Origin: a virus
Virus record (IMG/VR): IMGVR_UViG_3300045973_000529
Location: 124,001 to 188,000 of that record
DNA length: 64,000 bases
Reading direction: 5' to 3' (one strand)
This document shows, in pieces, positions 37,210 through 47,386 of the stretch. How positions within the stretch are numbered: the first letter of the stretch is position 1; the number at the start of each line of letters is the position of its first letter. Below the pieces are notes generated by a model, which was not told where the DNA came from, made no database searches, and saw nothing but the letters and a program-made list of their open reading frames with translations. The position numbers and the translations under genes are program-made.

Positions 37210-37377
37210 TCAGCGATCCAACGGATAGAGTCGCTGGTGGATCGCTGCCTTGGCTTCACGAATCGCGGCCAGCTCTTGCTCGAGCTCGGCCTGGCGAGCG
37301 TTCAGCAGAATCAGATTGGCGCGCATACCTGCGGCCGCAAGTGATTCGTCATGGGTGGCTTCGTATGTCTTCTTCAT
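37210..37377 (-). CDS. 55-aa coiled-coil protein
   Basis: MKKTYEATHDESLAAAGMRA and then a Leu/Glu/Ala heptad helix (NLILLNARQAELEQELAAIR). ATG overlaps the stop of the methyltransferase gene (ATGA) and the gene ends just before the terminator cassette, so it is very likely real. It may pair with the methyltransferase. Confidence 0.68.
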   Translation of the reverse strand: MKKTYEATHDESLAAAGMRANLILLNARQAELEQELAAIREAKAAIHQRLYPLDR

Positions 37378-38231
37378 GCTGCTTCCTTGCGTTTCCAGAT
37401 CTTCGGCATGCGGTTGAAGCCGTCATAGACCTTGATGAAATGCGCCTGAATGGCGCGGGTCGTGATGCGTCGTGCTTCACGATACGGGACCTTACCATGT
37501 CCTTCGATAGTGTAGTCATCGAAGTGGCCAATGTTGTCGGCCGAACCATTGAAGCCGGAGCTCTCGACGAGGTAGCCACCGGGGCCGACCAATCGAAGAA
37601 TGTCGGCGACATGCACCAATGGATCGGTGTAGTGCTCGAGCACCTCGAGTGACACAACCACATCGAACTGGCGGTCAGGCAGCTTCGTGTAGTTCACGAG
37701 CGGCAAGAGCCCGAAGTGCTCGGCCGCGACCTGCATGTACCGGACCTGGTCAGGGTTGTCGTTGAACGACGTGACGTTGAAGTCATTCAGCGCCAGATGT
37801 ACGGTCGTCAGTCCGTTGCCGTTGTAGATGTCAAGCACTGACATGTCACAGGGTTCTGCGTCACGGTATGGATAGCCACCGATGACATGAGCAATCACGT
37901 CAGGCGAATTCTTCATGACCCGTGTGTCAACCATGCGACCATCAGCGTCCACGTTCCCAGGCTTCAGACCATGGAAGTATTGGACCATGCCGGCAGTGCA
38001 GCACTTTGACTTCTCGAAGCAGTGGATCGCTTCGTAGTTGTACGCTGGGTGTTGGTACACACTGAAGTCGGGCTCACCACCGAGACTGGCTTGCCACTGA
38101 GCGAGCATCTCGGCTCGACCAGGCGTCATCTCAGCCGCGACCATGTCGGAGTACTTGCGATAGTTCGTGCCAGCGTACTTGTTCGTGATGTCAGTGACGG
38201 CACGGGTTGAGATTGAAATTGGTTTGTGCAT
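37374..38231 (-). CDS. Class I SAM-dependent methyltransferase
   Basis: A 285-aa protein. A Rossmann methyltransferase core lies at about residues 120-215: VLDIYNGNGLTTVHLA (motif I, glycine pattern diverged), VTSFNDNPDQVRYM (motif II acidic), FDVVVSLEVLEHYTDP (motif IV, Methyltransf_11 style), LRLVGPGGYLV (motif V). The first 110 residues are specific to this protein. Not a nucleic-acid N6 methylase (no NPPY). Substrate unknown; sugar, protein or small molecule is possible. ATG is six bases after TGCTATAAT, suggesting a leaderless mRNA. Confidence 0.82.
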   Translation of the reverse strand: MHKPISISTRAVTDITNKYAGTNYRKYSDMVAAEMTPGRAEMLAQWQASLGGEPDFSVYQHPAYNYEAIHCFEKSKCCTAGMVQYFHGLKPGNVDADGRMVDTRVMKNSPDVIAHVIGGYPYRDAEPCDMSVLDIYNGNGLTTVHLALNDFNVTSFNDNPDQVRYMQVAAEHFGLLPLVNYTKLPDRQFDVVVSLEVLEHYTDPLVHVADILRLVGPGGYLVESSGFNGSADNIGHFDDYTIEGHGKVPYREARRITTRAIQAHFIKVYDGFNRMPKIWKRKEAA

Positions 38232-40227: not shown

Positions 40228-40623
40228 TTACACCTTCGCCTTCGCCGCCTTCGCCCTCGCCCGGGTTCGCTGAACCTTGGCCTTGACCCGTTCGATCTTC
40301 TCTTCGGTGGTGAAGTGACTTGGGTGCAGAAACCCGGTCTGATTTTCGGCATGGGTCTGGTGATACTTCACCATCCCTTCGAGGTACGCCTTGGGGTCCT
40401 TGATCCCGTACCGCTTGAGCGACTTCAGGATCTTGCCTTCAGCGGCATTGCAACCACGGTGCAGCACGCCACGGATATGGCCATGCGTGTGATCGTGGTC
40501 GAGAACTGCTTGTTCCACAGAGCAATCAAGGCCACAAATGGCGCACTTGTAGCCTTGAGATTCGAGCAGTGACTGGCGAAGCGGTGCAACGCCAGTGGTC
40601 TTGAGCTTAGGAGATGTGGTCAT
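40228..40623 (-). CDS. Endonuclease VII (T4 gp49-like) / HNH
   Basis: A 131-aa protein. A treble-clef His-Me finger nuclease: CAICGLDC (zinc ligands), VLDHDHTHGHIRGVLHRGCNAAEGKI (catalytic DHDH and second half of the zinc knuckle, given as residues ~41-66). The C-terminal tail is Arg/Lys/Ala-rich. Recombination endonuclease VII resolves branched DNA before packaging in T4; it could also be a stand-alone homing-type member of the family. A good aggag precedes the ATG but with almost no spacing. Confidence 0.87.
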   Translation of the reverse strand: MTTSPKLKTTGVAPLRQSLLESQGYKCAICGLDCSVEQAVLDHDHTHGHIRGVLHRGCNAAEGKILKSLKRYGIKDPKAYLEGMVKYHQTHAENQTGFLHPSHFTTEEKIERVKAKVQRTRARAKAAKAKV

Positions 40624-40720: not shown

Positions 40721-40942
40721 CTATACCAGAGACTCGATGTACGCTTGTATTTGATCAAGCATCTCCTGTTTGAGAACCGCTGAGCATTTGAACGCGCCAT
40801 CGCTCGATGTGAACTCCCAAAACCTTCGCGGGGTAGAGTAATCCCAAGTGCAGTTGACACAGGTCCCAACGGCTTTACCGTTCACGTGCACTAAACGGCT
40901 GATCCAGGGAGCGCCAAAGACAGGGGCTTGCACCGTCATCAT
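40721..40942 (-). CDS. Small protein coupled to methyltransferase subunit 2
   Basis: A 73-aa protein. MMTVQAPVFGAPWISRLVHV, with CVNC near residue 28 and a single later Cys, then a helical C-terminus. Its ATG overlaps the upstream stop (ATGA). Last gene of the restriction-modification-like operon, directly before the terminator cassette. Confidence 0.68.
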   Translation of the reverse strand: MMTVQAPVFGAPWISRLVHVNGKAVGTCVNCTWDYSTPRRFWEFTSSDGAFKCSAVLKQEMLDQIQAYIESLV

Positions 40943-41895
40943 ACACGACGCCAGAGGTTCGGTTCTCGCAGTCCGTGACCAGAGCCGTACTGCTTCAGCG
41001 AAGGGCCAGGCTCTCCGAGAATCGTCTTGCCCTTTGCCTTCAGCGAAGCGTTCACGACATCTGCGAGCGCATCGTGGTCACATTCCCAGAATGAACCATC
41101 GAGCGGATCCTTGCAGCGGATCGTCATGCCCTTGCCGTACCATTCGGCCTTGATCTGCCAGCCGCCGCCCGGGCCAGTCGGTTCGCTTTCAGGCTTGGGC
41201 TCCTTAGCAGCCTTCACCGGCTTGGCGGGTTTCGGCTGCTTGAAGAGCTTTGAGGTGTCGATTTCGGGTTGCACTGGGGGCACTGGAATCTCCTGTTGAG
41301 CGAGTTGTGGTTGACGGCCAAGCATCTTCTCGACCATGTACTTCTCGCCGATATCTGGTGTGTCAGTTTCCGGCCAGGCGCCAAGATCCCGCTCGTCCAG
41401 AACTTCGAGCACTTCGATGAATTCATCATCCGTTCGGCCGAAACTCATGTCGTACTCGAGCGCGGTCGTGCAAACGTGGTTCCGGTGAAAGAGCACCTGG
41501 TCTTGGTCGAGCCCAAGCTGCTCGTGGTACGGGTTGTGGTCGTTCAGATCCTGCGCGATTTGATGAATCTGCCCGATGTCGAAGTGCTCGCCATTCGGCC
41601 AGAATTTCGGATTCGGTTGACCATCAATGAGATAGCCGAGTCGATGTTGCAGCACCCAGTGGTTGTCATCAATCAGCTCAACGCTGAAGAGCATGTTCTC
41701 GAGAATGTGCTTCTCATCGTGTCCGGCCTGAAGGAGGCGCACCTTGATCTCGACCAGAAAGTTTCCATCGCCCGCGGAGGGTTCCAGCCAGCGCTTATTC
41801 GGGTCAAACCAGACGGAATTCGGGAGAGCATCAAGCATCTCCCGAATCAGCGAGCGAGGAGTGAAGACCTCGCCAGTTTGTTTAACTCTTTTCAC
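40939..41895 (-). CDS. Adenine methyltransferase-like protein with motifs X and I only
   Basis: A 318-aa protein. TGEVFTPRSLIREMLDALP (motif X region) and WLEPSAGDGNFLVEI (motif I, SAM binding, residues ~37-50) are typical of Eco57I/TaqI-class N6-adenine methylases. Where the catalytic (D/N)PPY should follow (HRNHVCTTALEYDMSFG, ~168-184) there is none. A Pro/Lys-rich linker leads to a separate C-terminal domain. The previous gene has NPPY but a degraded motif I, and the two overlap by 14 bases. A two-subunit methylase is the simplest reading. Confidence 0.75.
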   Translation of the reverse strand: MKRVKQTGEVFTPRSLIREMLDALPNSVWFDPNKRWLEPSAGDGNFLVEIKVRLLQAGHDEKHILENMLFSVELIDDNHWVLQHRLGYLIDGQPNPKFWPNGEHFDIGQIHQIAQDLNDHNPYHEQLGLDQDQVLFHRNHVCTTALEYDMSFGRTDDEFIEVLEVLDERDLGAWPETDTPDIGEKYMVEKMLGRQPQLAQQEIPVPPVQPEIDTSKLFKQPKPAKPVKAAKEPKPESEPTGPGGGWQIKAEWYGKGMTIRCKDPLDGSFWECDHDALADVVNASLKAKGKTILGEPGPSLKQYGSGHGLREPNLWRRV

Positions 41896-42925
41896 GGAAG
41901 ATTTTCTGAATTTGTTCGCGAATCAACCACCCAGATTCCAAGCAAGCGTCAATGTATTTTCGGCCTTCTTCACCGTTGATCCAACCTTCAGCAAGTTTTG
42001 CTTCGCTCAGCGTGCTGAACACGAAGCTGTCGATCCCTTGTCTGAACCAAGGATTCGCACCGGACTCATCCAGCCATGCAACTTTCATATAGGAAATCAT
42101 GTTGCCATGCAGATTGACGTGAAGTACAGGCTTACCACTGTATTTTGCTAGTTTATCACGGGCGGCGCTGTGTGTGAATCGATGAAATTTCGGCTGGCCG
42201 TCAGCGCCCAAACAGCTGTAGACCGGAATGGAGTACTTTTCATCTCTCACCTTGCTCGTCTGGCCAAAATCGATACCAACAACTCGCAAAGCAGGAAATG
42301 ATACATTGCACTCTACATCCCGGCGCAAAAACGTCCCCTGAACTCCGCGATCAATCACAAACGCGGTGATTTTTTCAGCCACCAAGAAGTCCTTGCTTGC
42401 ATCACGCTCCCACAGCATGGTGGTTGCGTCCATCCAAGCGGTGTATTTGATAGCGCGGTCTGCATCCCTTGCAAAGATATTTACTGGGACCACATACGCG
42501 TGAACAGAGGCATCCGTAGAGTGAATTCCCGTGAGATGCAGGAACTTGTAGTGAATATCGGTCTTGCCGCTGTACGGTGGGTTGCCAACCACCACGTCGA
42601 ACTTGAGGCCCATGAGTTGTTGTTCCAATTCTTTGATTGGCTCATTGTAACCAACTTGTAAAACCCTACCCACTCGCATTTGGTTCGCGAGTAGTTCTTG
42701 CTCAGGTGTGTGAGCCACAAAAGTGATGCGATCAAAACTTGCGCCTCGGCTCTTCAGCACTGGCAGGAACCCCAGATCAGAAAGTACAAGGATTGAGCCA
42801 TCGAGTTTGATTCTTGAGAGCATCTGCTCGGCGAGCTCGAACGGGGTCCAAGCGGGTTTCACCGTGTCAGCTGCATAGGCAACATTGATACGTTCAGCCA
42901 GGATCTGGAGGATTGCGGTGTTCAT
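41882..42925 (-). CDS. Adenine methyltransferase-like protein with NPPY
   Basis: A 347-aa protein. FDVVVGNPPYSGKTD (residues ~109-123) is a textbook N6-adenine methylase motif IV. At the motif I position there is SILVLSDLGFLPVL, lacking the acidic/glycine SAM loop. The following FDRITFVAHTPEQ resembles motif II. The C-terminal ~220 residues would be a target-recognition part. Start MNTAILQ is seven bases after TAGAAT, mirroring the nuclease-helicase gene. DNA modification as part of the cassette is inferred. Confidence 0.8.
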   Translation of the reverse strand: MNTAILQILAERINVAYAADTVKPAWTPFELAEQMLSRIKLDGSILVLSDLGFLPVLKSRGASFDRITFVAHTPEQELLANQMRVGRVLQVGYNEPIKELEQQLMGLKFDVVVGNPPYSGKTDIHYKFLHLTGIHSTDASVHAYVVPVNIFARDADRAIKYTAWMDATTMLWERDASKDFLVAEKITAFVIDRGVQGTFLRRDVECNVSFPALRVVGIDFGQTSKVRDEKYSIPVYSCLGADGQPKFHRFTHSAARDKLAKYSGKPVLHVNLHGNMISYMKVAWLDESGANPWFRQGIDSFVFSTLSEAKLAEGWINGEEGRKYIDACLESGWLIREQIQKIFREKS

Positions 42926-42932
42926 GCTCGGC

Positions 42933-42938
42933 ATTCTA
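42933..42938 (-). promoter_or_regulatory. -10 box of the methyltransferase operon
   Basis: TAGAAT on the minus strand in TAGAATGCC-GAGC-ATGAAC. Compare the nuclease-helicase gene: TATAATGCC-ATCC-ATGAAC. Same spacing, so co-regulation is likely. Confidence 0.55.
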
Positions 42939-42966: not shown

Positions 42967-43428
42967 TTACAACGTCAGTGCAGGCAGAATCGGATGAGCC
43001 TTACGATAGCGCATGAGCAGCAGCATCTCGTCGGTATCGTGAATGCCGACCGCATGAGTCTTGAGCAGATCCGAGATTTTGGCTGAATCAAAACCATTTC
43101 GCGTCAGCACTTCGAGCACCTGCGAGATTGACATGTATCCCGCCCGCAATGCTGCGAGCTTGTTACGCAGCGTCAGCTCGACTTGGCCCAGGTCCTTCAG
43201 ATCCTGGCCCGTCACACACCAGCGAAACTGCATCCCGATTGAATACACGAGCGAGCGCGGCGGCAGCACGCAGGTTTCTCGCATGATTCGCTCGACCTTC
43301 TCAGCGTCTGACACTGGGAGCTGTGCTTCTGGCATGGTTTGGCCGAGCGGACCAAGTACCATTTTCACAGCCTGGTACATGATCTCGCGATTGCGAGTGC
43401 CTTTCCACTTGATGCGCTCTTTGCTCAC
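42967..43428 (-). CDS. Small helical protein between nuclease-helicase and methylase
   Basis: A 153-aa protein. GTG start overlaps the helicase stop (GTGA). Helical with QVELTLRNKLAALRAGYMSISQVLEVL and FDSAKISDLLKTH, which could be a small helix-turn-helix. No family recognised. Its position suggests a specificity, control or inhibitor role in the cassette. Confidence 0.7.
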   Translation of the reverse strand: MSKERIKWKGTRNREIMYQAVKMVLGPLGQTMPEAQLPVSDAEKVERIMRETCVLPPRSLVYSIGMQFRWCVTGQDLKDLGQVELTLRNKLAALRAGYMSISQVLEVLTRNGFDSAKISDLLKTHAVGIHDTDEMLLLMRYRKAHPILPALTL

Positions 43429-45515
43429 AGCAGCTCCAGAAGGTCAGCGGTATCTTGCTTGCGGTACTTGGCGAGCAGCTCTTCTTCGAGCTCTGTTCTA
43501 ACCAGCTCGACTTGCACGTTCTTCACAGCGCTCTGGATAGAGTCGGCGCCGATCACGTTCTTCAGTGCGTTCAGCGGAACCACCCAGCCGTCGTCATCAC
43601 CATCGACGCCGTGTAGACCTTCATCCACGTCAGCGAAGGCGTAGTCGTTCTCGGTCAGGCCAGCGTATTGCAGCTTCAGCACGAGATCGACCAGGAAGTC
43701 CTTGAAGGTCTCGAGCGTTTCATCATGCACGATCACATACACGGTGGCCGAGTACTTCTTCCAGCCTTCGGGGCTGTCGATCGAGATCAGCCCGGCCTTC
43801 AGGTTCTTAGTGTCTTCGGGATTGGCACGAACGGCGCGGCCGATCGCTTGCTGGGTGCCGATAACATCGGTGTTGCGCGAGAAGATCACGCAGTTGAAGG
43901 GGTTGATGTCAATGCCTTCCTTCACAACGCTGAACTGGCAGAGCACCGAGTCAGAAGAGAGCTTCACTTGCTCGTAGATCTTCTTGCGATCGCGTGAAGG
44001 CACACCAGCGTGAACAGTTTCCAGCAGTCCGCTGAACTCCGCACGAACGGCCGGGTTGGTGGTGATTTCCTTGCAGATCGGCACGGCCTTGCTAAAGGTG
44101 ACCGCGTTGCAGAAGCCGGTCTTCATCATGTCGGTGTGCGCTGCGATGGTACCAGCCGCTTCCACGACGGCTGTGCGCAGGTCAAAGTTTTCACGCTTTG
44201 CGGCCTTCTTCATTGCCGTGTCAAGCCCCTTGAGCTTTGCACCGTCGTGAAGGACCAGGGTCTTGATAATGATCTTCGGGACCAAGATGCCGGTCTTGCG
44301 CAGATCGGAGTACTTGATCTCGCAAAGGAGCGGGCCGTACAGCGTCTCGTCAGTGCCAGACACCAGGCGACCGCGCTTGATGCTGGCCGAAAAGAAGAGA
44401 TTGCGAGCGCTCGGAATCGAGAGCATGTGATCGCGCCGATCGGTCGTCTGCTGCACAGTGTGGTGGAACTCGTCCCAGCAGACCAAATCAGCCTCGATGT
44501 CCTTGGTATCCAGCCCGTCGAAGAGCTTGCCTTCAGATGCGTACGTCACAAACACGAGAGTCTTCTGGGTCATCCACGACACCAGATCGTTCGGCGATGT
44601 GGTCTGCCGGATGTCGGCCCAGTTGTCAGCACTTTCGTCGCCAGTCCTGAAGTGCACGACTGACACGCCATGCACGTGGAACGCGCCGTATTTCTGGAAG
44701 TACTCATGATGTTGACGCAGCAGATCGATGGTGGGAGCGACCACGACTTGCAGCGTGAAGCCGCTTGCGAACCCGTCCATCACGTTCTGATAGATCACAC
44801 GGGTCTTGCCGCCACCAGTGGCGCAGATCACGCGACCGTTGCCACCGTTCTCCATGATGGGTTGGGTTGCAGCGCGCATCACTTGCTGATGTTCCCACAT
44901 TTCAGGAGGATCGACGAAATCGGTGGGTGCCACAGTCGAGAGGTTCACCGTGAGGTTCAGCTCGCGCCAGAAACTCGGGTCGCGATCAATGAAGCTCTCT
45001 TGTTCTTCCTTGCCGATGACTCGCATCCGAGCTGCCAGTGAAGCTGCCATCGGCGCGAAGATGCCATGTTCACCAGTGTTCGAGAGATTCGTGAACCAGA
45101 TGCGACGATTCTTCGAGATATCGAGCTCGTCGCATTGGTCAATGAAGGTGTAAAACGAATCGCGCTTGAATTTGTCGGTCGGGTTCGAGCGATACTTCAC
45201 CTGCAGCAGACATGGTTCGCCGTTGAAGTTTTCATGGGCAAAGTCGTAGCCGGCCTGATACTTGTTCCGGCTCGTGTCGCTGATGTGCTTGACACCAAGA
45301 TGAGGATTCGCGTCGGTGCCGTACCGCGCGAAGAAGAATTCGGTGAACACTTCGTAGGCAGCTCCCACGAAGTCGTTGTACTCCTCGGATCCGGGCTTGC
45401 CGAGCTTCTTGCCGAATTCAGCGATCCGCTTGATCATCATGTCGAAAGACGTGATGTCGGAGAAGACGCCAGACTCGCCGATCGTCTTCGTTTGGAGGTG
45501 GTTTAGCTTGTTCAT
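43425..45515 (-). CDS. Nuclease-helicase fusion, restriction-enzyme type
   Basis: A 696-aa protein. The N-terminal ~190 residues form a PD-(D/E)XK nuclease-like domain: AYEVFTEFFF (Glu), GYDFAHENF (Asp91) and LLQVKYRS (QxK, 105-107). An SF2 helicase follows: WEHQQ, ATGGGKT (232-238), VVAPTIDLLRQ, WDEFHH (~347-352), FFSASIKRG, VKEGIDI and QQAIGRAVR. This is the arrangement of type I/III-like or Mrr-linked restriction motors; UvsW lacks the nuclease. Start MNKLNHLQ chosen because TATAAT lies seven bases upstream. With the methylase-like genes it forms a modification-dependent or restriction cassette. Confidence 0.82.
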   Translation of the reverse strand: MNKLNHLQTKTIGESGVFSDITSFDMMIKRIAEFGKKLGKPGSEEYNDFVGAAYEVFTEFFFARYGTDANPHLGVKHISDTSRNKYQAGYDFAHENFNGEPCLLQVKYRSNPTDKFKRDSFYTFIDQCDELDISKNRRIWFTNLSNTGEHGIFAPMAASLAARMRVIGKEEQESFIDRDPSFWRELNLTVNLSTVAPTDFVDPPEMWEHQQVMRAATQPIMENGGNGRVICATGGGKTRVIYQNVMDGFASGFTLQVVVAPTIDLLRQHHEYFQKYGAFHVHGVSVVHFRTGDESADNWADIRQTTSPNDLVSWMTQKTLVFVTYASEGKLFDGLDTKDIEADLVCWDEFHHTVQQTTDRRDHMLSIPSARNLFFSASIKRGRLVSGTDETLYGPLLCEIKYSDLRKTGILVPKIIIKTLVLHDGAKLKGLDTAMKKAAKRENFDLRTAVVEAAGTIAAHTDMMKTGFCNAVTFSKAVPICKEITTNPAVRAEFSGLLETVHAGVPSRDRKKIYEQVKLSSDSVLCQFSVVKEGIDINPFNCVIFSRNTDVIGTQQAIGRAVRANPEDTKNLKAGLISIDSPEGWKKYSATVYVIVHDETLETFKDFLVDLVLKLQYAGLTENDYAFADVDEGLHGVDGDDDGWVVPLNALKNVIGADSIQSAVKNVQVELVRTELEEELLAKYRKQDTADLLELL

Positions 45516-45522
45516 GGATGGC

Positions 45523-45565
45523 ATTATACTGCCATCCCGGAAGAAGTACACCACTAAATTGTAAC
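45523..45565 (-). promoter_or_regulatory. Three-box promoter P3 of the nuclease-helicase gene
   Basis: GTTACA-N8-GTGTAC-N17-TATAAT on the minus strand. The -10 box is seven bases from the ATG, so the mRNA would start at or beside it. Confidence 0.75.
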
Positions 45566-45992: not shown

Positions 45993-45998
45993 TATTTA
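45993..45998 (-). promoter_or_regulatory. Late promoter TAAATA (minus strand)
   Basis: ggcgTAAATAcgc on the minus strand, 27 bases before the 45965 start. It overlaps the stop codon of the ART-like gene. Confidence 0.72.
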
Positions 45999-46922
45999 CG
46001 CCTTCTTGGTGGCGAACAGTTTGATATGCTTGGGCAGGATCGTGCCGCGATATGCAACGGATCCGAGCTCCTTGACACCCAGCTTCACTTGATTGTGCAT
46101 GCGCTTCGGATCAACTTCACGGCGTGGATGGAACGCATCGTCTGGCGAGTACTTGCCAGGATCCGGCACCGTGATCTCGAGTACCACATACTTGTCGTCG
46201 CCGTCCTTCACCGCTTGGCGCTTGCCGTAGAACTCAGCCGTCTTCGGGTTCATACCGAGGTAGACGTTGTGTTCCGAGTATCCTTTGATCAGGTCATTGT
46301 AGACTTCGCCAGTGTGACCTGGCTGCAGCCCCTTCTTCTGGATGCTCTCCCAACGCGACCATGACGTGCCGTGGTACAGGACCTGTGGCTTGTTCTTCAT
46401 GATCTTCGTGACGTTGTCCTCCATTGCGAGGACCTCGCCAACCGTCTTGCCGTTCATGCCTGGTTGGATACCCTTGATCACGAAGTCGTCAGTGACTTTG
46501 TACCGCTTGAGGTTCTTCAACGCGTCCTTGAAGGTCTTGATGTCGTTGATGGTCCGCATCCGCGACTTACCGCCAGCATCTTCTTTGGCGATCGTGATCG
46601 TCTTGTCAGCGAACACGATCTTGCCACCAAGATGGTTCCAAAGATCAGTCTCGCCAGGTCTTTCGAGCTTCACGTCTTGGACCTTCTTCTTGCGAGCGAC
46701 CACCGCCTTCCATTCGCCAGAAGCAACGATGCCAGAGTAGACCTCGTTCACGGTGCTTGCAAGGATCAACTGTCCACCGTGGTACAGGAAGTACATGCCT
46801 TCAGCTGGATCGATCCAGCCCGACAACTTCACAGCACCCCAGTACGGGAACTCCTTTTCGACGTTCTCGTGTCGCCAGTCGCGAACTGACTTGGCTTCCA
46901 GCAGAAGTTCAGCTACTTTCAT
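45996..46922 (-). CDS. ADP-ribosyltransferase-like late protein with capsid-targeting N-terminus
   Basis: A 308-aa protein. The N-terminus MKVAELLLE/A fits a T4 capsid-targeting signal ((L/I)xE cut). The C-terminal half looks like an ART/KptA-type fold: LYHGTSWSRWESIQKKGLQP (residues ~182-201), VYLGMNPKTAEFYG (220-233), YVVLEITVP (245-253) and YRGTILPKHIKLF. T4 Alt is a packaged ADP-ribosyltransferase with such a signal, so this may be an Alt analogue that acts on entry. The exact catalytic triad is not certain. Coupled to the Nudix gene (ATGA). Confidence 0.72.
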   Translation of the reverse strand: MKVAELLLEAKSVRDWRHENVEKEFPYWGAVKLSGWIDPAEGMYFLYHGGQLILASTVNEVYSGIVASGEWKAVVARKKKVQDVKLERPGETDLWNHLGGKIVFADKTITIAKEDAGGKSRMRTINDIKTFKDALKNLKRYKVTDDFVIKGIQPGMNGKTVGEVLAMEDNVTKIMKNKPQVLYHGTSWSRWESIQKKGLQPGHTGEVYNDLIKGYSEHNVYLGMNPKTAEFYGKRQAVKDGDDKYVVLEITVPDPGKYSPDDAFHPRREVDPKRMHNQVKLGVKELGSVAYRGTILPKHIKLFATKKA

Positions 46923-47386
46923 ACGGCCTCAATCTTGGATACGCTATCAGGGTCATTGAGAATGCCCTGCATACCGAAGTGCAATGGAGATGGTAGCTCA
47001 TCAAACGAGCACCAGCGATAAGTGGATGTTTCCCAGTTCAGGGTTGGGTTGAACTCGGTGTCCACTACTGCTAGGAAGTTGTGGTACTTGAAGCTGCCTT
47101 TCTTGAAGACGAAGAGCGGTACAAGCTCAAGCTGTCCGTCATAGCCCGCCTCTTCGCGAACCTCGCGTTCAGCTGCCGCCTTCGGTGCTTCTCGACCGTC
47201 AATCGCACCACCCCAAGTCCCCCAAGTCCCTGGTTCTTCCACGTCCTTGGATCGCTTTGGCATGCAGATACGCTTGGTGTCCCTAGCAATGATGACACAT
47301 CCAGCCCCGGCTTTACCCCAAAACCCAGTGCGTTCTAGGGTTTTCGCGTGTTGTTCATTGCTCTCAAAGAGCTCTGCCACCAGCAT
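46919..47386 (-). CDS. Nudix hydrolase with capsid-targeting-like N-terminus
   Basis: A 155-aa protein. Nudix box G60-x5-E66-x7-R74-E-V-x-E-E-x-G81 is complete, so the pyrophosphatase should be active. Possible substrates include ADP-ribose, NAD-type molecules or capped RNA 5' ends. The N-terminus MLVAELFE/S resembles the (L/I)xE capsid-targeting signal of its neighbour. Overlaps the upstream stop (TAATG). Confidence 0.87.
   Translation of the reverse strand: MLVAELFESNEQHAKTLERTGFWGKAGAGCVIIARDTKRICMPKRSKDVEEPGTWGTWGGAIDGREAPKAAAEREVREEAGYDGQLELVPLFVFKKGSFKYHNFLAVVDTEFNPTLNWETSTYRWCSFDELPSPLHFGMQGILNDPDSVSKIEAV

Follow-up and report, generated by a model that had tools for sequence, protein, structure and literature searches.

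Two overlapping genes of a viral genome code for proteins that each resemble a different part of a DNA adenine methyltransferase (MTase), which raises the question of whether they work together as one enzyme. The genes, called here A and B, lie in a window of 64,000 bases (bases 124001-188000 of a 190,499-base IMG/VR virus record), and all window positions are counted from its first base. A contains the NPPY motif and B the SAM-binding motifs. The likely answer is that A and B together make up one N6-adenine amino-methyltransferase, each as one subunit. The pair meets what is asked of a split MTase in sequence terms: two polypeptides with complementary motifs that are conserved as a pair. The sequences of both proteins, their pairing, their fusions, their homology to intact enzymes and their predicted folds are shown below, while the complex, SAM binding, methylation and the docking geometry are inferred, as there are no biochemical data.

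The A and B genes of the window

Among the motifs of an N6 amino-MTase, motif IV is found in A (at residue 118), and motif X and the SAM loop of motif I are found in B (Table 1), with no (D/N)PP(Y/F/W) anywhere in the B sequence. A preliminary description, made from sequence alone, had assigned NPPY and a SILVLSDLG sequence at motif I to the upstream protein, and TGEVFTP and LEPSAGDGNF without (D/N)PPY to the downstream one, and both assignments held. It had also placed the end of the pair at 42925, which is an internal Met (the A ORF runs to 42934), and had proposed that the genes are translationally coupled, which is plausible from the 14-bp overlap but inferred. In family searches A matches Pfam Eco57I (9.9e-5, residues 108-129 only) and B matches N6_Mtase (0.004, residues 4-62), both just under the curated cut-off, and B also matches phrog_4376 (7.7e-28). 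The acid position of motif III is T in window B (CTTALEYD) and D in short B relatives (CADALEYD), whose chain, according to the alignment, stops soon past motif III, ahead of the expected start of beta4.

The C-terminal part of window B (GGGWQIKAEWYGKG...FWECDHDALADVVNASLKAKGKT) is also found as a free-standing protein of 157 aa, with 57% identity, in a 336-kb phage contig (L006, 5887-6360), and we read it as a small, mobile domain of unknown function.

Upstream of A there is a gene coding for a nuclease-helicase, which matches Pfam DEAD (5e-10), Pfam ResIII (1e-8) and phrog_7683 (1e-8). Its helicase part is clear; the nuclease part is assigned from distant similarity and a common GxD...QxK pattern, and the same G-x-D...Q-x-K is present in alignments of free-standing nuclease-like proteins of relatives. 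The protein is probably a restriction or translocation component. The 153-aa ORF that separates this gene from A gave no family match in Pfam/PHROG searches.

Other minus-strand ORFs of the window could be assigned as well: a class I methyltransferase (37374-38231; Methyltransf_11, 9e-10) with a long N-terminal extension, which by motif is not a DNA MTase; a recombination endonuclease VII homolog downstream of B (40228-40623; Pfam 1.4e-15); and a 308-aa ORF (45996-46922) matching the RNA 2'-phosphotransferase Tpt1/KptA (Pfam 4e-6). The last adjoins a NUDIX protein (46919-47386), with which it possibly forms an ADP-ribosyl/NAD-related pair.

Table 1. Features of the A-B locus, in window coordinates
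Feature	Position	Strand	Description
Subunit A	41882-42934	minus	ATG start, 350 aa; NPPY subunit (motif IV-VIII and putative TRD), SAM-binding N-terminal half decayed
Subunit B	40939-41895	minus	GTG start, 318 aa; SAM-binding half (motifs X, I, II, III), without NPPY
Overlap of A stop and B start	41882-41895	minus	14 bp, GTGAAAAGAGTTAA
A motif IV, NPPY	42572-42583	minus	Residues 118-121; N, P and P invariant among A relatives
A degenerate motif I, SILVLSDLG	42770-42796	minus	Residues 47-55
A motif X remnant, WTPFE	42836-42850	minus	Residues 29-33; FVPFE in relative L009
B motif X, TGEVFTP	41857-41877	minus	Residues 7-13; T, E, F, T and P invariant in B alignment
B motif I, LEPSAGDGNF	41758-41787	minus	Residues 37-46; G, G and N invariant in B alignment
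B motif II region, SVELIDDN	41662-41685	minus	E, D and N invariant in B alignment
B motif III region, ALEYD	41449-41463	minus	From sequence and B alignment
B C-terminal extra domain	40942-41193	minus	About residues 235-318
Nuclease-helicase gene	43425-45554	minus	709 aa; putative Mrr-like PD-(D/E)XK (GxD...QxK) nuclease domain and DEAD/ResIII helicase in one chain
153-aa ORF	42967-43428	minus	Between the nuclease-helicase gene and A

Pairing of A and B in viruses

IMG/VR was scanned using the B alignment as query; at least 450 loci were confirmed, and the top 80 were taken as the viral sample. Many of these loci are closely related, and the 77 B proteins that could be parsed fall into 11 clusters at 70% identity. 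A GxG motif I is present in 77/77 of them and a (D/N)PP(Y/F/W) of their own in 0/77. An A-type partner was found directly upstream of B, or one gene away, in each of the 69 loci whose sequence extends 700 bases or more beyond B on that side; this partner carries (D/N)PP(Y/F/W) in 66 cases and a variant motif IV in the remaining three (NFPY in L049 and L050, NAPY in L011), located in the same place and with B intact. Only 3 further (D/N)PP(Y/F/W) motifs were found elsewhere in about 609 kb, so the pairing is beyond chance. The variant partners are located at 4340-4990 of L049, 3595-4245 of L050 and 1700-4954 of L011; the possibility that these three loci lack A was rejected because of these variants. 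In cyanophages, B relatives of 132-138 aa, annotated as hypothetical, are preceded by an NPPY protein (036/037 of P-SSM2, 86/88 of Bellamy and 056/057 of S-CAM7).

Viral A proteins show three architectures: a protein of about 193 aa that starts at motif IV, a protein joined to the C-terminus of a helicase, and the type found in the window, which contains an N-half of 65-130 aa without a canonical motif I. This motif is absent from 26 of the 27 viral A proteins that have an N-half (the exception, L085, has an intact DPAAGGG), and many A relatives have no N-half at all, with NPPY at residue 8-12. The gene upstream was considered as a source of the N-half missing from the P-SSM2-type A and was rejected, since the genes at this place are tail-fibre-like or unrelated. 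An N-terminal LEM-3-like GIY-YIG domain is present in the A of PSD9 and of Vibrio phi-ST2.

L009, a distant relative of the window locus, likewise has A ahead of B and shares ILVLSD(L/C)G with it, its A being about 40% identical over 151 aa and its B about 76%. Searches with window A by itself gave no matches by tblastn against phage genomes and no relatives in a single-sequence IMG/VR scan, so that relatives had to be sought with alignments and from the B side.

The split pair of Shigella phage PSD9 and Klebsiella phage KpV477 is located between primase gene 61 and dCTPase gene 56, the position that is occupied by dam in T4, and this replacement of dam supports the interpretation of the pair as a heterodimeric MTase. 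In KpV477 (L095, 2005-3490), A seems to be split into two ORFs (030 and 029) when compared with PSD9_103, and B (028) is intact.

Bacterial relatives and natural fusions

Scanning of genomes with the B alignment identified split pairs in Streptococcus, Rhodococcus, Janibacter, Corynebacterium, Bdellovibrio-like and other genomes, mostly with B before A, and these bacterial relatives match the PADLOC models PDLC03626 and PDLC03375. In order to avoid a B-only search, PDLC03375 was used as the A family on 592 genomes (296 Bacteroidota and 296 Actinomycetota), of which 24 Bacteroidota and 15 Actinomycetota were positive. Among 37 A-family loci, 34 have a separate B nearby, as detected with an HMM, two are single-chain B-A fusions, and in one (L192) a recognisable B was not found. 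This HMM was built partly from B proteins of the same bacterial loci and without a second B branch. In one bacterial type a helicase gene sits between B and A.

Most bacterial A proteins contain DPxxK(S/T)G where GxG is expected, and the B HMM matches the N-half inside many of them (E about 1e-7 to 1e-15), which shows that those halves are decayed B paralogs. The match of the B HMM to the N-half of window A is not significant (E about 0.2), unlike that of the L085 A, whose N-half shows significant homology to B with the HMM. The bacterial KSG methyltransferases were also considered as single-chain enzymes, which was rejected because B is found immediately upstream of each.

The second B branch has CGEAP(F/Y) as motif I and is mostly 326-342 aa long (L191-L201), and several of its loci pair with helicase-A fusions of about 1320 aa; it was missed by a stricter B sequence pattern and recovered by the HMM. 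In a Muribaculaceae contig (L113, 2434-3890), a single KSG-type A (515 aa) is preceded by two B genes in tandem, coding for 225 and 242 aa.

A and B are also found as natural fusions. In the Aeromonas phages Aeh1, PX29, phiAS5, 65 and CC2 they form an A-B fusion, with motif IV first and motifs X-I-III last, and the fusion-only loci of these phages have no annotated helicase within about 2.5 kb and keep the B part. The reverse B-A fusion, in one chain, is present in some actinobacterial loci (L199, and L202 up to a frame break). The existence of fusions in both orders indicates that A and B are parts of one unit, and is predicted by the fission-and-fusion route to circular permutation described previously (PMC3320104).

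Homology to intact enzymes and predicted structure

The A and B profiles cover adjacent, non-overlapping segments of the same intact N6-MTases. On PDB chains, the B profile aligns with 26-79 of CamA, 11-63 of M.BseCI and 353-411 of BsaXI, and the A profile with 126-283, 128-286 and 506-585 of the same chains, respectively.

An Aeh1-type fusion was modelled with AlphaFold2 as one domain (mean pLDDT 81.4, pTM 0.81), from an alignment that included window A and B. The model aligns end to end, from residue 1 to about 371-408, with the permuted amino-MTases of the beta class (Z of 10.1 for MboIIA, 10.1 for BceJIV and 8.8 for CcrM); the modest Z of 10 reflects an aligned length of only about 150-180 residues. 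With gamma-class enzymes the two halves align separately, the first 250 residues with TaqI, CamA and BseCI over their motif IV-TRD part, and residues 280-409 with BsaXI and DrdV over their SAM part.

Window A alone gives a different picture. AlphaFold2 predicts a core of about residues 30-195 that has its own beta1-3 and mostly high pLDDT (mostly near 90 for residues 30-150), residues 200-308 not being modelled. Compared with known structures (VIA), the whole core aligns with CamA (Z 16.9) and M.TaqI (Z 15.8), with Z of 14-17 across CamA, TaqI and HsdM. The positions of motifs I, II and III are degenerate, with their acidic and glycine positions lost. By this model window A has the entire Rossmann core, with its SAM half decayed, and not half a fold, so B cannot simply complete the sheet there without displacing this pseudo-half. 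Docking of B on window A is unproven, and the confident composite model is that of the fused homolog and not of the window pair.

The reading made from sequence alone needs one correction here: the SAM residues of A are decayed, yet its Rossmann core is complete in the model. The heterodimer that had been proposed, with SAM on one subunit and catalysis on the other, is well supported, although the complex, SAM binding and activity are all inferred. An intact SAM pocket in A alone had been named as the result that would refute it, and this is not met at the sequence level; no ligand was modelled.

Proposed mechanism and alternative explanations

In the proposed mechanism, B would provide the SAM-binding part (motifs X, I, II and III, that is, beta1-beta3 of the Rossmann sheet) and A would provide beta4 onward, including the NPPY catalytic loop, motifs V-VIII and target recognition. 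Both proteins would associate with SAM on B facing the NPPY of A, generating a single joint active site in which A would position and methylate the target adenine. Where A has motif IV at its start, as in the Aeromonas-phage fusion and in the P-SSM2 and Rhodococcus types, no SAM half other than B would be possible, and B would have to complete the sheet. Window A keeps a decayed SAM half, probably left over from a gene duplication, and we infer that B has assumed the function of this half. A joint active site is a close inference from homology for those A proteins without an N-half, and is likely for the window. The heterodimer is supported by the pairing observed from both sides, the fusions in two orders, the complementary matches to MTases, the composite model and the replacement of dam. 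Against it stand the complete core predicted for window A alone, the T-for-D change at motif III of window B, the L192 locus without B and the lack of significant homology between B and the N-half of window A.

One alternative, which we consider unlikely, is that A alone is an active MTase using a non-canonical SAM pocket of its own (with a motif I of the DPxxKSG or SDLG type), B serving it as an accessory protein or activator. In its favour, the model of window A alone shows a Rossmann core that is complete and similar to those of CamA and M.TaqI, the bacterial A proteins conserve DPxxK(S/T)G and so have not drifted freely, and the viral L085 A retains DPAAGGG. However, window A has lost the acidic and glycine positions of motifs I-III and does not meet the canonical (D/E)PxxGxG, the many A relatives without an N-half would be unable to bind SAM alone, the SAM motif of B is strict in every viral case, and natural fusions link the SAM half of B to A.

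The other two alternatives seem very improbable. B could be a SAM-sensing regulator that gates the restriction/helicase part without donating methyl groups to the active site of A, as could be suggested by its presence in operons with helicase and nuclease genes and by the bacterial type with a helicase between B and A; nevertheless, B is kept in the Aeromonas-phage loci without an annotated helicase nearby, the P-SSM2-type A has no other SAM half, and the fusion is modelled as one domain. Both genes could also be functionless remnants of an MTase decaying in the window phage, in line with the degenerate motifs of A and the T near motif III of B, but both ORFs are intact and overlapping, L009 retains A and B with the same motifs despite being a distant relative, and the pairing is maintained over very divergent phages and bacteria.

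The split N6-adenine MTase is, then, the reading that we prefer, and it can be extended in two directions. Together with the adjacent nuclease-helicase, the pair may constitute a phage-borne restriction-modification-like operon, used against competing DNA; this is suggested by the neighbouring protein, with the G-x-D...Q-x-K of its nuclease-like domain, but restriction is inferred and we neither favour nor disfavour this possibility. A bolder proposal, which we put forward tentatively and with more doubt than conviction, is that A and B represent a widespread and undescribed family of two-subunit N6-MTases, in which the duplicated and inactivated SAM half of the catalytic subunit (K-S-G for G-x-G in bacteria) would be a placeholder displaced by B. 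This family would keep several stages (intact duplicate, decayed half, deleted half and re-fusion in either order) of the conversion of a gamma-order MTase into a circularly permuted one.

Comparison with known systems

As in the gamma-class N6-adenine MTases (M.TaqI, CamA and M.BseCI; Pfam Eco57I/N6_Mtase), motifs X-I-II-III (B) and IV-VIII plus TRD (A) correspond to adjacent segments, but in contrast to these single chains the enzyme proposed here is broken between motifs III and IV, which leaves two proteins, and phages have the genes in the opposite order, with A ahead of B. With the permuted beta-class amino-MTases (M1.MboIIA, CcrM, M.RsrI and EcoP15I Mod) the A-B fusion of Aeromonas phages shares the motif order IV-VIII followed by X-I-III, although the sequence affinity of this fusion is to gamma-class enzymes, and A and B of the window are separate chains. 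Helicase and gamma-type MTase modules, together with a putative nuclease module, are shared with Type ISP and Type IIG restriction-modification enzymes (LlaGI and LlaBIII; PADLOC PDLC03626); in the window, however, they are distributed over at least three ORFs and the MTase itself is split, so the Type ISP criterion of nuclease, helicase, MTase and TRD in one polypeptide is not met.

PADLOC, which draws on REBASE, already contains A-only and B-like proteins as separate Type II methyltransferase models, of which PDLC03375 (348 aa) covers the A half only. A naturally split N6-adenine MTase of the A-B kind was not found described in the open-access literature searched; REBASE and subscription journals were outside its scope, and prior recognition is possible.

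The split reading offers a testable function for phrog_4376 and its relatives, most of which carry no more than a hypothetical-protein label in T4-like cyanophages and in Aeromonas phages, and likewise for a bacterial gene pair present in about 5-8% of the sampled Bacteroidota and Actinomycetota genomes. If it is true, a DNA adenine methyltransferase with SAM binding on one protein and catalysis on another would be unusual, the family could serve to test the origin of permuted DNA methyltransferases (the PMC3320104 model), and a naturally split adenine methyltransferase could become a two-part methylation tool.

DNA MTases composed of two polypeptides with the conserved motifs divided between them are known among the C5-MTases, in M.AquI and M.EcoHK31I (PMC3404938). 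Those enzymes are cytosine-C5 MTases with a small subunit carrying motif IX or IX-X, whereas A-B separates the SAM half from the catalytic half of an N6 amino-MTase. In METTL3-METTL14 and MTA1-MTA9 (PMC5023411, PMC9852454), one subunit has both the SAM site and the catalytic motif and the other is degenerate. The A-B pair resembles these complexes in being formed by two MTase-like proteins, one of them with degenerate motifs, and differs from them in that the SAM site and the catalytic motif would be divided between the two subunits.
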